Origin: Hyphomicrobiales bacterium | GTDB lineage: Bacteria > Pseudomonadota > Alphaproteobacteria > Rhizobiales > Kaistiaceae | Direction: 5' to 3' | DNA: 36,803 bases | Assembly: GCA_024222895.1 (NCBI GenBank) | Contig: JAAEOR010000150.1 | Location: forward strand, 1 to 36,803 | In this document: piece after piece, positions 11,871-15,334 of the stretch | How the letters are laid out: every line of letters begins with the position of its first letter | Numbering within the stretch: position 1 is the stretch's first letter | Program-made: the position numbers and the translations under genes | Notes under the pieces: generated by a model | What the model was told of the DNA's origin: nothing | Databases searched by the model: none | The model's input: the letters and a program-made list of their open reading frames with translations, nothing else

Positions 11871-12110
11871 ATGAACGGGACCGGATCGGTGAAAACCGGT
11901 GCACCCGGCACCATGTCGTCGCGCTGCTGTCAGGCTACCGGGTCTACCGCGAGTCTCGTGATCGGCGTTGCGTTTCCTCACCCACCTCGGCTTCTGTCGT
12001 TTCCGCCAGCTCAACCACGTGGTTGCCGTCTCGTTGCCAGCCGACGCTGTGTCGGTCGGGCAGCGGCGCCCGCGTCGGGCGAGCGTTCCTCGAAGGGAGA
12101 AAAACTATGA
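11871..12110 (+). CDS. Candidate leader ORF upstream of the ABC binding protein
   Basis: A 79-codon open frame beginning with ATG at 11871, preceded by GGGGAGGA (11857-11864) at an ideal six-base spacing. Its TGA overlaps the ATG of the binding protein (ATGA, 12107-12110). The predicted peptide is rich in Arg, Pro and Cys and resembles no family I know, so it may be translated for regulation rather than for product, or not be a gene. The strong ribosome site and the exact coupling are what support it. The preceding stretch 11644-11870 has no other gene. Confidence 0.3.
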   Translation: MNGTGSVKTGAPGTMSSRCCQATGSTASLVIGVAFPHPPRLLSFPPAQPRGCRLVASRRCVGRAAAPASGERSSKGEKL

Positions 12111-13087
12111 CAATGAGATCCGGCAAATTGCTTCAGGCCGCCAGCATTCTCGGAGTGGTCATGCTTGCGACTCCGGCCCTGGACACGGTCGCCTTTGCGC
12201 AGGACGATGACATCTCGATCTATTTCGTCGGCTGCGCGGCACCAACTGGCTTTCACGGTTACCTGGCCCGCGGCGCCGCGGAGGCTGGCGAGAACCTCGG
12301 CGTCAACGTCACCTACATTTTTCCGGATAAGCTGACGATCCCCAATCAGATCCAGAAGATTGAGGAAGCGATCGCTGCCCAGGCCGATGGCATTGCGATT
12401 TGTGTGTTCACCGAAGATGTCGCCTACACCGAAGTCGTTGCGGCCGCAAATGCCGCCGGGATCCCGGTCGGTAGCGCTGCGGCGCCACCGGCTGGCAAGC
12501 AGGTCCGTGATCCCGACGACATCTTCCTGTTCCGGACCGGCTCGGACGAACGCGCGGCCGGTGCGTTGACCGCACAGCGGCTTATTTCCATGGGCGTCAC
12601 CGGGCGTGTTGTCGTCGGTGACCAGCAGCCCGGCGACGCCACGTGCCGTGATCGCGCCGACGCCCAGATCGAAGCGCTCAAGGCGGCCGGCATCGAAGCT
12701 GATTTCCTGGAACTGACGATGGATCCGGGCCAGCAATCGGAGGCTATCTTCAACTATCTGCGGCGCAATCCGGACACCGCGGCCGCAACCAGCGTCTGCG
12801 ATGTTATCGATGGGTTCCTGTCAGCCAAGGCCGACAGCGGCCGCGACGACCTGATCATCACCGGGTATGACATCGTCGCCCAATCGCTCGAAGCGATCCG
12901 CGACGGCCGGCAGGCCTTCACCATCGACCAGCAGCAATTCTGGCGTGGCTATATGCCGGTATCGCTTCTGGTCCACAACATTAAATATGGACTGCTCCAG
13001 GCCAACTACTTCCTGACCGGCCCAACGATTGTCGACAAGACGAATGTCGAGCAGGTCGCCGAGCTGGTCGAGCAAGGGTACCGCTAG
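12107..13087 (+). CDS. Sugar ABC transporter periplasmic binding protein (ribose/fructose type)
   Basis: A 326-aa member of the type I periplasmic binding proteins (RbsB/FrcB-like). The signal peptide is about residues 1-31, ending in TVAFA-QDDD. The mature part shows two Rossmann-like lobes, with IQKIEEAIAAQADGIAI and EVVAAANAAGIPV typical of the sugar-binding family, and conserved TGYD and QQQFWRGY segments in the second lobe. The open frame extends to 11756, but the ATG at 12107 has AAGGGAGA upstream and starts the signal peptide. The stop codon lies inside the first arm of a long palindrome. The ligand is unknown; an acylated or amino sugar would fit the neighbours. Confidence 0.9.
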   Translation: MTMRSGKLLQAASILGVVMLATPALDTVAFAQDDDISIYFVGCAAPTGFHGYLARGAAEAGENLGVNVTYIFPDKLTIPNQIQKIEEAIAAQADGIAICVFTEDVAYTEVVAAANAAGIPVGSAAAPPAGKQVRDPDDIFLFRTGSDERAAGALTAQRLISMGVTGRVVVGDQQPGDATCRDRADAQIEALKAAGIEADFLELTMDPGQQSEAIFNYLRRNPDTAAATSVCDVIDGFLSAKADSGRDDLIITGYDIVAQSLEAIRDGRQAFTIDQQQFWRGYMPVSLLVHNIKYGLLQANYFLTGPTIVDKTNVEQVAELVEQGYR

Positions 13088-13161
13088 TGGTCCGACTCCG
13101 ACATTTGCTACCCACCTGCGGCACTCTCCCAAGCAAATGTCGGAGTCACCAGGACCACTAG
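13084..13161. repeat. Long palindromic element, unit 1
   Basis: The left arm CTAGTGGTCC (13084-13093) plus GACTCCGACATTTGCT (13094-13109) pairs perfectly with AGCAAATGTCGGAGTC (13132-13147) and GGACCACTAG (13152-13161). Four unpaired bases (ACCA, 13148-13151) interrupt the right arm, giving 26 pairs with a bulge and a 22-base loop. The stem includes the stop codon of the binding-protein gene. It shares CTAGTGG ends and a GACATTTG core with unit 2 just downstream. There is no T-run, so it looks like a REP/MITE-type repeat rather than a plain terminator. Confidence 0.85.
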
Positions 13162-13174
13162 CAACTATTTGATT

Positions 13175-13253
13175 CTAGTGGAGCTTCTGAATTTGACATT
13201 TGAATAAGAGCCTTGCAGCGAGCGGGACTCAAATGTCAAATTCGCTCCACCAG
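13175..13253. repeat. Long palindromic element, unit 2
   Basis: The left arm CTAGTGGAGC (13175-13184), four unpaired bases TTCT, then GAATTTGACATTTGA (13189-13203) pairs with TCAAATGTCAAATTC (13229-13243) and GCTCCACCAG (13244-13253), with one mismatch in the outer stem and a 25-base loop. The layout is the same as unit 1: ten outer pairs, a four-base bulge and 15-16 inner pairs. Here the bulge is on the left arm instead of the right. The two units are 13 bases apart and fill the gap before the permease gene. Confidence 0.85.
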
Positions 13254-13334
13254 ACCACCGACTTACGGGCAGGAGGGGATCGGAACCTCCCCCTGCCCTT
13301 TTGGCTCCCATAGCCCACTTTGCGAAGGACCGGG

Positions 13335-14495
13335 ATGGCTGAGGATTCGAAACAGAGCGCTCCCGGCAACCGATCTTCGCGTGGTGTCGTTTTCGGTGAG
13401 GCGGGACGGCGGTTCATGCTGCGCCCCGAGTCTACGGCCCTCGCCGCTGTCGTTATCCTGTTCATCGTATTCACTGCGCTCGCTCCGCAGCTGTTCCCGG
13501 CCAGGCTAACCTATATCAGCATCATGGCGGTCGCGGCCGAGCTCGGCATCATGAGCATCGGCGTGACCCTGTTGATGATTGGAGGCCACTTCGACCTGTC
13601 GGTCGGCGCAGTGCTCGGCCTCACCTCCTTTGTTGCTGTGGTCCTGATGCGCGATTTCGGCCTGTCGCCGGTGATCGCCACGCCGGCAGCAATCGCTGTT
13701 GGCGCCGCGCTCGGCGCGGTGAACGGCCTGATCGTCGTCCGTTTCCGGATCCATTCCTTTGTGGTGACTCTCGGCACCATGCTGATCTGGCGCGGCGTCC
13801 TGATTGCACTGACCGGCGGCTTCCCGATGACGGTCGAGATTCCGCCCTTGTTCAAGGACATCATGTCAGGCCCCCTGATCGGCGGTTTTCGCATGTCGAT
13901 GGTCTGGTTCCTGGTCATGGGCGTCATTGGAACGGTACTGCTGACACGAACCAAATTCGGTAACTGGGCCCAGGCATGTGGTCAGAACCCGCAAGCGGCT
14001 CGCAATCTTGGTGTGCCGGTCGACCGCGTCACCATCATCCTGTTCATGATTGCTTCCGCCTGCGCCGCCCTGTCGGGAGTGATACAGGTAGCCCGTTTCG
14101 CATCTGTCGACGCGTTGCGCGGCGAACAGATGGAACTGCAGGCCGTCGCGGTGACGGTAATCGGAGGTACCCTCCTTTCAGGCGGTTATGGAAGCGTCAT
14201 CGGAACCGTCCTCGGCGCCATAACGTTTGGAATGATCCAGGTGGGTCTGGTATTGGCCGGCGCCCCCGGGCATTTCTTCCGAACACTGACCGGCCTTATT
14301 GTTGTTCTCGCCGTTATCCTCAACACGGATGTCGCCCGCCGCCTGGCAAGATCGCGTCCACTCGGTGGCTTCAAGCGAAGCAGCGCCGACGCGGACGCCG
14401 CGATTGCGGCCGAAGGAGCGACGGATGACATGCCGGATGTCCCCCAACGCGACGGCGTCCAAACGCCCGGTGAGGCCGGAGGACCAAAGCCATGA
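13335..14495 (+). CDS. Sugar ABC transporter permease (RbsC/FrcC-like)
   Basis: A 386-aa polytopic inner-membrane protein of the ribose/xylose/fructose-type permease family. It has a soluble N-terminus of about 30 residues, then eight or more hydrophobic segments. Seen: IGGHFDLSVGAVLGLTS, the family's signature (usually GGIDLSVG), AARNLGVPVDRV as the ATPase-contact loop, and TVIGGTLLSGGYGSVIGTVLGA. I chose the ATG at 13335, which has GAAGGA upstream, over a TTG at 13320. Its stop overlaps the ATPase start (ATGA). The C-terminal 50 residues are hydrophilic and variable. Confidence 0.93.
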   Translation: MAEDSKQSAPGNRSSRGVVFGEAGRRFMLRPESTALAAVVILFIVFTALAPQLFPARLTYISIMAVAAELGIMSIGVTLLMIGGHFDLSVGAVLGLTSFVAVVLMRDFGLSPVIATPAAIAVGAALGAVNGLIVVRFRIHSFVVTLGTMLIWRGVLIALTGGFPMTVEIPPLFKDIMSGPLIGGFRMSMVWFLVMGVIGTVLLTRTKFGNWAQACGQNPQAARNLGVPVDRVTIILFMIASACAALSGVIQVARFASVDALRGEQMELQAVAVTVIGGTLLSGGYGSVIGTVLGAITFGMIQVGLVLAGAPGHFFRTLTGLIVVLAVILNTDVARRLARSRPLGGFKRSSADADAAIAAEGATDDMPDVPQRDGVQTPGEAGGPKP

Positions 14496-15334
14496 CCGAC
14501 AGGTCGGGCCCTACATCGGACCGTCTGCCGATGGGCAGTGGCGCCGGGGACTCGCTGCGAGACAACCGGACGATCCAGCCGATCCCGGAAGACGCCGTTC
14601 CGGTCATGGAGGCGGTCGGGGTTTCCAAGGGATTTGGCGCGACAACGGCGCTGGTTGACGTCTCACTCAAAGCCTATGAGGGTCGCATCCTCGCCCTGTT
14701 GGGTGACAACGGTGCCGGAAAGTCGACGCTGATCAAGATCTTGTCGGGAGTCTTTCCGCCCGACGGAGGAGAGTTGCGCTTCCACGGCAAACCCGTGACG
14801 TTTTCGAATCCCGGCCAGGCGCGCCAGCGCGGCATCGCCACGGTGTTCCAGGACCTTGCGGTTTGCGAACTCCTCTCAGTGACGCGCAACGTCGTCCTCG
14901 GTCGTGAACCGCAAAAGTGGGTCGGTCCGCTCAAGTGGCTCGACCTCAAACGTGCCGACGCGATGGCGCGCTCCGCACTGCACAGGCTTGGCGTACGCTG
15001 GGAGCGCGGCCTCGAAGAGCGCGGTATGAACATATCGGGTGGCGAGCGCCAGTCTCTGGCCATTGCCCGGGCCATGTTCTTCGGCTCGTCATTGCTGATC
15101 CTGGACGAGCCTACCTCGGCGCTCGCCGTCCGGCAGGCGGGTCGGGTTCTCGACCACATCGCCAGGGCCCGCGACGAGGGGCAGGCCGTGATCCTCATTA
15201 CTCACAATTTCCGACACGCCCTTTCGGTCGCCGACGATCTGACGGTACTCGCACAAGGACGGGTCGCCGGTACCTTTCGTCGAGATCAAATCGAACTGGA
15301 GGAGTTGACCGAACTCGTCGCAAGCGTGGGTTGA
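14492..15334 (+). CDS. Sugar ABC transporter ATP-binding protein (single-domain, FrcA-like)
   Basis: A 280-aa ABC ATPase with one nucleotide-binding domain, unlike two-domain RbsA; the binding-protein, permease, ATPase gene order matches frcBCA-type fructose importers. Seen: Walker A GDNGAGKST at 71-79, a Q-loop in VFQDLAV, the signature ISGGERQ (a variant of LSGGQ), Walker B LLILDEPTS, and the switch His in LITHN. An N-terminal extension of about 36 polar residues precedes the domain. It is coupled to the permease by a four-base overlap and energises import at the inner face of the membrane. Confidence 0.93.
   Translation: MTDRSGPTSDRLPMGSGAGDSLRDNRTIQPIPEDAVPVMEAVGVSKGFGATTALVDVSLKAYEGRILALLGDNGAGKSTLIKILSGVFPPDGGELRFHGKPVTFSNPGQARQRGIATVFQDLAVCELLSVTRNVVLGREPQKWVGPLKWLDLKRADAMARSALHRLGVRWERGLEERGMNISGGERQSLAIARAMFFGSSLLILDEPTSALAVRQAGRVLDHIARARDEGQAVILITHNFRHALSVADDLTVLAQGRVAGTFRRDQIELEELTELVASVG

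Follow-up and report, generated by a model that had tools for sequence, protein, structure and literature searches.

Of the systems described so far, the CIR family of Caulobacter (the CcrM-associated intergenic repeats of Chen and Shapiro 2003, taken here from PMC2229807) comes nearest to the element analyzed here. In that description, GANTC is the CcrM site, a GANTC lies at or overlaps the terminal loop of one arm of the repeat, and the mobility of the family is left unexplained (PMC2229807). In Brucella, the insertion sequence IS711 inserts at YTAR in the Bru-RS repeats (PMC2266754, PMC3163539), and in Pseudomonas syringae, MITEPsy1 has been caught transposing, with a 4-base duplication (PMC3189936). 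Among autonomous elements, IS870 depends on a 5'-CTAG-3' target for creating the stop codon of its open reading frame, as stated in the title of Fournier et al. 1993.

The window analyzed here, a stretch of 36,803 nucleotides from a Hyphomicrobiales bacterium (contig JAAEOR010000150.1), contains two paired hairpins, H1 and H2, that are one dispersed parasitic DNA element, 170 bases long at this locus (Table 1). Judging from its ends, its target and its copies in other genomes, this element is very probably a miniature transposon (MITE) that belongs to the IS870 group of the IS630 family, is non-autonomous and is moved in trans by an IS870-type DDE transposase at CTAG.

Table 1 Features of the two-hairpin element and of the genes around it (positions in the window)
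Feature	Position	Strand	Detail
Upstream gene, periplasmic binding protein (Peripla_BP_4)	12101–13087	+	open frame from 11756
Whole two-hairpin mobile element	13084–13253	+	CTAG left, CCAG right (CTAG in most copies)
Left CTAG, presumed target tetranucleotide	13084–13087	+	Agrobacterium vitis empty sites with a single CTAG
Hairpin H1	13084–13161	+	fold and covariation
H1 outer stem	13084–13093/13152–13161	+	10 pairs
H1 inner stem	13094–13109/13132–13147	+	16 pairs
GANTC (CcrM methylation site)	13094–13098	.	position 11 of H1 end, as in IS870-group 3' end
H1 loop	13110–13131	+	22 bases
H1 bulge	13148–13151	+	4 bases, 3' arm
Linker between H1 and H2	13162–13174	+	13 bases; one GANTC begins inside at 13171
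Hairpin H2, mirror plan	13175–13253	+	fold and covariation
H2 outer stem	13175–13184/13244–13253	+	9 of 10 pairs in this copy
H2 bulge	13185–13188	+	4 bases, 5' arm
H2 inner stem	13189–13203/13229–13243	+	15 pairs
H2 loop	13204–13228	+	25 bases
GANTC	13226–13230	.	position 24 of H2 end, as in IS870-group 5' end
Downstream gene, ABC permease (BPD_transp_2)	13320–14495	+	
Next gene, ABC ATPase (ABC_tran)	14492–15334	+	

A sequence-only reading of the window had described two bulged hairpins with a common plan and with their bulges on opposite arms, and both are present. Their arrangement is a mirror symmetry in which each bulge lies towards the middle of the element. The same reading called them a tandem pair; the two hairpins are indeed adjacent, but elsewhere H1, linker and H2 move together as one unit of 165–172 bp. 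A covariance model matches 13084–13253 with an E value of 3.4e-47, this copy being itself among the 55 elements used to build the model. The predicted DNA fold of the element reaches −52.2 kcal/mol, compared with −22.5 ± 3.2 kcal/mol for 200 shuffled sequences (z = −9.3), none of which is as low, and the RNA folds of the + strand have z scores of −9.6 (H1) and −5.2 (H2). Two familiar classes of structure were rejected. A known structured RNA finds no Rfam family above cut-off, the scan returning only four microRNA matches far under the gathering cut-off (best 23.8 bits, compared with 100), and an intrinsic terminator is absent from 12900–13450 in a scan limited to loops of 3–8 bases, with no T-run 3' of either hairpin.

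The element was also said to start inside a stop codon and to separate a binding-protein gene from its permease gene, which is what the gene context shows: the upstream open frame stops with the TAG at 13085–13087, inside the left CTAG, and Peripla_BP_4 and BPD_transp_2 genes flank the element. In Aminobacter, too, a copy separates a binding-protein gene from a permease gene. Across copies, and with crude gene calls behind all of the following counts, none of the 90 elements with enough flank lies within a predicted gene; their neighbors are arranged in tandem in 46 cases, convergently in 24 and divergently in 14, with five elements far from any gene and one unresolved. The 3' ends of neighboring genes touch an element edge in 42 of 94 cases, and 61 of 206 element ends fall on the stop of a 100-codon frame, compared with 51 of 272 other CTAG sites. 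The start inside a TAG stop follows from CTAG targeting together with the loss of insertions within genes, and CTAG targeting thereby explains why such elements frequently begin in a TAG stop codon.

Further copies, for which the sequence-only reading had advised looking in this genome and its relatives, are plentiful. The genome, a draft of 7.1 Mb in 1,186 contigs with 7.6% contamination, holds at least 42 full-length rows, comprising the copy in the window and 41 others that are 79–95% identical (40 of 119 candidate regions scored). A search of the same genome for the left end with at most three mismatches found 85 sites, compared with one for the reversed control. When the copies are aligned, the element has sharp edges and the flanks are unrelated. 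Seven of 60 relatives carry the element, in very uneven numbers per genome; counting this genome, 8 of 61 have a match, the one in G029 being only 31 bases long. In a sample of the class, the covariance model matches 20 of 384 genomes besides this one (21 of 385 with this one), in a search whose strict filters can lose weak matches. An end-pattern scan of public genomes gave at least 110 stretches and, among the matches listed, those with titles naming a group below phylum are, we presume, all from Alphaproteobacteria. A Brucella daejeonensis contig contains a 167-bp copy.

Two sets of copies underlie the comparisons below. Two-hairpin copies of 165–172 bp number 116, partly from the end-pattern matches listed, and passed an outer-end pattern that permits at most five substitutions per end and at most two on at least one end. 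This pattern itself partly imposes the similarity of the ends, the CTAG, the G, A and T (not the final C) of the position-11 site and the G at position 24. Repeat loci L024, L034, L044, L046 and L049 and transposase loci L031–L033 were left out beforehand. At less than 90% identity, 55 of the 116 were kept, 43 of them found through the end-pattern scan and 12 through whole-element similarity. The second set, 30 copies from the window's own genome, was collected by BLAST with no end pattern; one partial match was dropped, and so was L018, which occupies the place of L024. In this set, 21 copies have CTAG at the left end and 21 have it at the right end. Two tandem pairs of copies each have one common CTAG, as expected if one copy inserts into the terminal CTAG of another.

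Variants of the element accompany the full-length copies. Relatives of 112–133 bp, found as model matches, mostly keep the plan and often the bulge; their stems are greatly altered and their loops are smaller. This shorter class (L241–L255) comprises two-hairpin elements from six other genomes, mostly with CTAG-like ends and with small loops. In seven single-hairpin forms (L062, L069, L098, L120, L126, L127 and L159), the H1 outer arm is joined to the H2 outer arm and the bulge is absent by eye; these seven resemble deletions between repeated inner arms. Of the 20 single-hairpin matches, several are two-hairpin copies truncated where the fetched stretch ends, and at least seven are true joins by eye. 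Seven IMG/VR contigs (L169–L175), which may be bacterial stretches, carry the end pattern, and L171, L172 and L175 have two element copies each.

Traces of insertion come from Agrobacterium vitis, three genomes of which carry copies at differing places, 93–98% alike; the element at the L144 locus, for example, is 93–98% identical to copies elsewhere in the two other genomes. We compared six A. vitis loci. At four of them the element is absent in relatives, where just one 4-base site remains between the aligned flanks: a single CTAG in both relatives at L203 and at L201 (queried with the right flank only), a single CTTG in one relative at L106 and a single CCAG or CCAC in the relatives at L144. 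One 4-base site was found in all seven comparisons over these four loci, and it was exactly CTAG in four of the seven; the two loci with CTTG, CCAG or CCAC count against a strict CTAG target. At L202, the relatives lack the element together with a neighboring repeat, and this locus was excluded from the target-site count; at L200, the comparison gave no empty counterpart. The repeat near the right flank of L202 occurs about 100 times among the matches listed, in three A. vitis genomes. The net gain per insertion is the element plus one target copy, which fits duplication of TA or of CTAG alike. At an A. vitis plasmid locus, all seven records covering at least 80% of the query span the copy, and empty-site comparisons of Rhizobium SSA_523 with Neorhizobium SOG26 and in Phyllobacterium, where the flanks are too diverged, were uninformative. 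With many copies, unrelated flanks, occurrence in some relatives and presence or absence with empty sites in A. vitis, the suggestion made from the window alone that these hairpins belong to a family of mobile repeats is borne out.

In two A. vitis genomes, the end-pattern search also picked out a repeat that is a 1.15-kb insertion sequence (IS), with identical copies at two places in one of these genomes. Its 359-residue protein is an IS630-family transposase (NCBIfam E value 7e-77; DDE_3 match), and a public plasmid record with a 100% protein match annotates this IS as IS870. The 3' end of IS870, CTAGTGGTTTGATTCCAACACTTG, agrees with the H1 consensus, CTAGTGGTCCGATTCCGACATTTG, at 20 of 24 bases; beyond the CTAG, the agreement is 16 of 20 bases, and none of 200,000 shuffles was as good. 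Against single elements, the best agreement is 22 of 24 (the element on a Martelella plasmid) and the median is 19. We read eight IS870-like elements, the A. vitis one and seven that were fetched, and six of them enter the end tables; the elements of Sphingobium V4 and Novosphingobium P6W, in which CTAG is absent after the 3' end, were left out and have the same GANTC positions by eye. In one of the six, the 3'-end match to H1 over bases 14–30 (10.3) is below the shuffle maximum (11.0). Past base 13, the H2 end is nearer to the IS 3' end (mean 8.9–10.8 of 17) than to the 5' end (6.9–9.0; shuffle maxima 8.1–9.8), so H2 is tied to the IS 5' end by its GANTC position alone. The three IS with printed last codons all have a TAG stop formed at the CTAG end.

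Element and IS870-group IS occur together in two A. vitis genomes, on one Martelella plasmid and on one Sphingobium plasmid; A. vitis CG78 carries the element and gave no match to the IS870 ends. An IS870-like protein (E ≤ 1e-30) was found in 2 of 61 genomes, namely one of eight element carriers (G056) and one of 53 non-carriers. The draft genome of the window has no such protein at this threshold, which counts against the IS870-group reading, and its two IS630 matches have no element-like end at fewer than six edits in the fetched stretches, that of L032 being cut by the contig end. Three loci of that genome (L031, L032 and L033) hold two IS630-type matches and one broken Y1 transposase match, with element ends absent nearby. 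In G056, a genome with 75 end-pattern sites, L228 is an IS630-family element whose protein is 67% identical to that of IS870; its downstream CTAG end, CTAGTGCACTG, is unlike the element ends.

GANTC sites connect the two ends of the element with those of the IS. Each of the six intact IS870-group elements has three to five GANTC sites in the whole IS, one of them at position 24 of the 5' end and another at position 11 of the 3' end. Of the 55 elements, 44 have GANTC at H1 position 11 and 28 have it at H2 position 24, both counted from the outer ends, and within 40 bases of the element ends it is found elsewhere in one case only. For most of the 55, the search pattern dictated part of the position-11 site, whereas the IS and the 30 BLAST copies were chosen otherwise; in the latter, GANTC is present at H1 position 11 in 28 and at H2 position 24 in 28. 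The copy in the window has both sites. In total, the 55 elements contain 149 GANTC sites, compared with a mean of 35 and a maximum of 51 in shuffles, which ignore the doubling produced by paired arms. By this mark, as read from sequence, H1 is the counterpart of the IS 3' end and H2 that of the IS 5' end, and the occurrence of CcrM sites in such repeats acquires a simple reason, as they occupy the same positions as in IS870-group ends. We tentatively propose that the long GANTC-bearing repeats of Alphaproteobacteria (this element, its shorter relatives, probably CIR and perhaps Bru-RS) could be one IS870-group-driven superfamily of two-hairpin MITEs, in which the CcrM sites at positions 11 and 24 would be functional methylation sites of the ends. 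If this is true, CcrM methylation would link the transposition of IS870-type elements with DNA replication in Alphaproteobacteria, a part that Dam plays for IS10 in enterobacteria.

The hairpins themselves are preserved by compensatory change. In the 55 elements, 95.5% of cells pair as the two-hairpin structure requires, and every slid register scores far below the true pairing. Both sides have changed in 24 of 50 pairs, compared with 10.2 in shuffles, and cells with two-sided change number 125, compared with 26.6 ± 4.2; of five measures of covariation, one (further pair types) gave 52 compared with 49.4, a value that 58 of 500 shuffles reach. This test is fair because 43 of the 55 elements were found by an outer-end pattern that is blind to the inner arms. 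Pairing of outer end with outer end shows no covariation above shuffles in the same 55 elements. Taken together, these results indicate that each outer arm tracks its own inner arm and not the opposite end, which counts against the MITE reading, as a classical MITE would not need such pairing.

Selection on structure, the cause proposed in the sequence-only reading, is compatible with the strong compensatory change within each hairpin, but copying from arm to arm could also yield it. Such copying at replication (quasi-palindrome correction), in place of selection on structure, is a possible source of the covariation, although not the one that we favor; it concerns the covariation only and is compatible with the IS870-group MITE explanation. 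Quasi-palindrome correction needs adjacent, nearly perfect arms, and the arms of each hairpin are adjacent and nearly perfect. The lack of mutual covariation between the two ends of the element is also as expected for copying inside each hairpin, and the measure of further pair types, not above shuffles, points the same way. Copying would, however, tend to erase the bulge, and a bulge of a few bases is retained in most of the 55 copies; most of the shorter relatives, too, hold the plan with other stem sequences. Whether selection or arm-to-arm copying keeps the hairpins paired despite sequence drift is now directly testable.

The same compensatory change (24 of 50 pairs; 125 cells) could suggest that the element is mainly a host RNA element under selection, such as an mRNA stabilizer, processing site or terminator, with mobility secondary. 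The stable RNA folds of H1 and H2 and the position between binding-protein and permease genes, here and in Aminobacter, also fit that explanation. We nevertheless consider it unlikely: the distribution is patchy (21 of 385 genomes, this one included), the flanks are unrelated, the element is present or absent between A. vitis strains, neither hairpin has the T-run of a terminator and the scan (loops 3–8) found none, and the orientation of the neighbors varies (46 tandem, 24 convergent and 14 divergent of 90). A local effect on the host is a separate matter. The REP of malE–malF is a model for a stabilized binding-protein mRNA, and it is plausible that the element stabilizes the binding-protein mRNA at this locus, where its transcribed hairpins would protect that mRNA relative to the permease mRNA.

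Movement by a DDE transposase from another group with TA or YTAR targets, for example the IS711 enzyme, is a further alternative. IS711 duplicates TA at YTAR and inserts into the Bru-RS of Brucella (PMC2266754, PMC3163539), and MITEPsy1 targets CTAG or YTAA with ends like those of an IS5-family element (PMC3189936), so IS630 cannot be identified from the target alone. The ends of the IS870 group, in contrast, agree with the element over a long stretch and in the positions of GANTC, and we regard another DDE group as highly unlikely. Movement as a REP- or BIME-like repeat by a REP-associated tyrosine (Y1) transposase, the enzyme that the sequence-only reading had proposed looking for, is scarcely credible: BIMEs and REPINs are paired mirror-oriented hairpins with bulges, which the element resembles, and it is intergenic and often at gene 3' ends, but despite dozens of copies the window's own genome has a single Y1_Tnp match (positions 1–40 of 121, with an internal TAG), the empty sites retain one CTAG-like tetranucleotide, and the ends show the IS870 pattern including the GANTC positions, so that ends and target point to an IS630/IS870-type transposase.

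The element has several features expected of an IS870-group MITE. It is short, has no transposase gene and exists in many dispersed copies; its terminal inverted repeats are common to the autonomous IS870, strongly at the H1 end and weakly past base 13 at the H2 end; and its empty sites keep one copy of the target. An IS870-group transposase would be the mobilizer: acting in trans, it would bind the ends of the element, in which the outer arms of the two bulged hairpins, mirror images on either side of a 13-base linker, would act as terminal inverted repeats. Insertion at the TA of a CTAG target would leave CTAG at both ends, TA and not the whole CTAG probably being duplicated, and CcrM methylation of the ends may tune transposition. 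This reading supplies a concrete candidate mobilizer and a target rule for the widespread palindromic intergenic repeats of Alphaproteobacteria; among the matches listed, the open-licence literature contained no link of such repeats to IS870.

Several described repeats resemble the element in part. The repeat directly beside it in Aminobacter, which we take to be RIME1, differs from it in sequence, and identity of the element with RIME1 was rejected. Used as a query, that repeat matches 93 Sinorhizobium records, whereas the element matches 13 plasmid records and none of Sinorhizobium. Other rhizobial palindromic repeats, presumably RIME-like, adjoin the element at L166:1284–1390 and at the right flank of L202. 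RIME1 is like the element in being a rhizobial intergenic repeat, as described in PMC2573895. RUP of Streptococcus pneumoniae is also a short repeat with TA targets and with indirect evidence for an IS630-family transposase, but it is 107 bp long and belongs to another phylum, and two separate bulged arms do not figure in its description in PMC2229807. MITEPsy1 of P. syringae is a 100-bp MITE that likewise inserts at CTAG or YTAA, but its printed ends are unlike those of the element, and its authors link them to ISPsy2 of the IS5 family (PMC3189936). Bru-RS1 and Bru-RS2 of Brucella, compared by description, share palindromic structure at 103–106 bp and are the repeats into which IS711 inserts at YTAR (PMC2266754, PMC3163539).

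CIR, as described in PMC2229807, shares with the element two inverted-repeat arms and a linker, TA termini, GANTC, an intergenic location and alphaproteobacterial hosts. The GANTC at H2 position 24 falls at the stem–loop border (28 of 55 elements; 28 of 30 copies from the window's genome), in keeping with the CIR feature given at the outset. CIR, known to us by description, differs in its length of about 110 bp, compared with 165–172 bp for the element, and the relatives of 112–133 bp share the plan of the element. On this comparison by description, the element is filed as an IS630-family MITE and not as a proven CIR. IS870 and ISAr1, both of the IS630 family, come close in sequence: like the element, they have CTAG at both ends, a 3' end that reads CTAGTGG(A/T)TTGATTCCAAC, GANTC sites at the positions given above (11 at the 3' end, 24 at the 5' end) and a TAG stop at the CTAG end. 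IS870 differs in being about 1.15 kb long and in encoding its transposase, whereas the element is geneless and has both ends folded as bulged hairpins.
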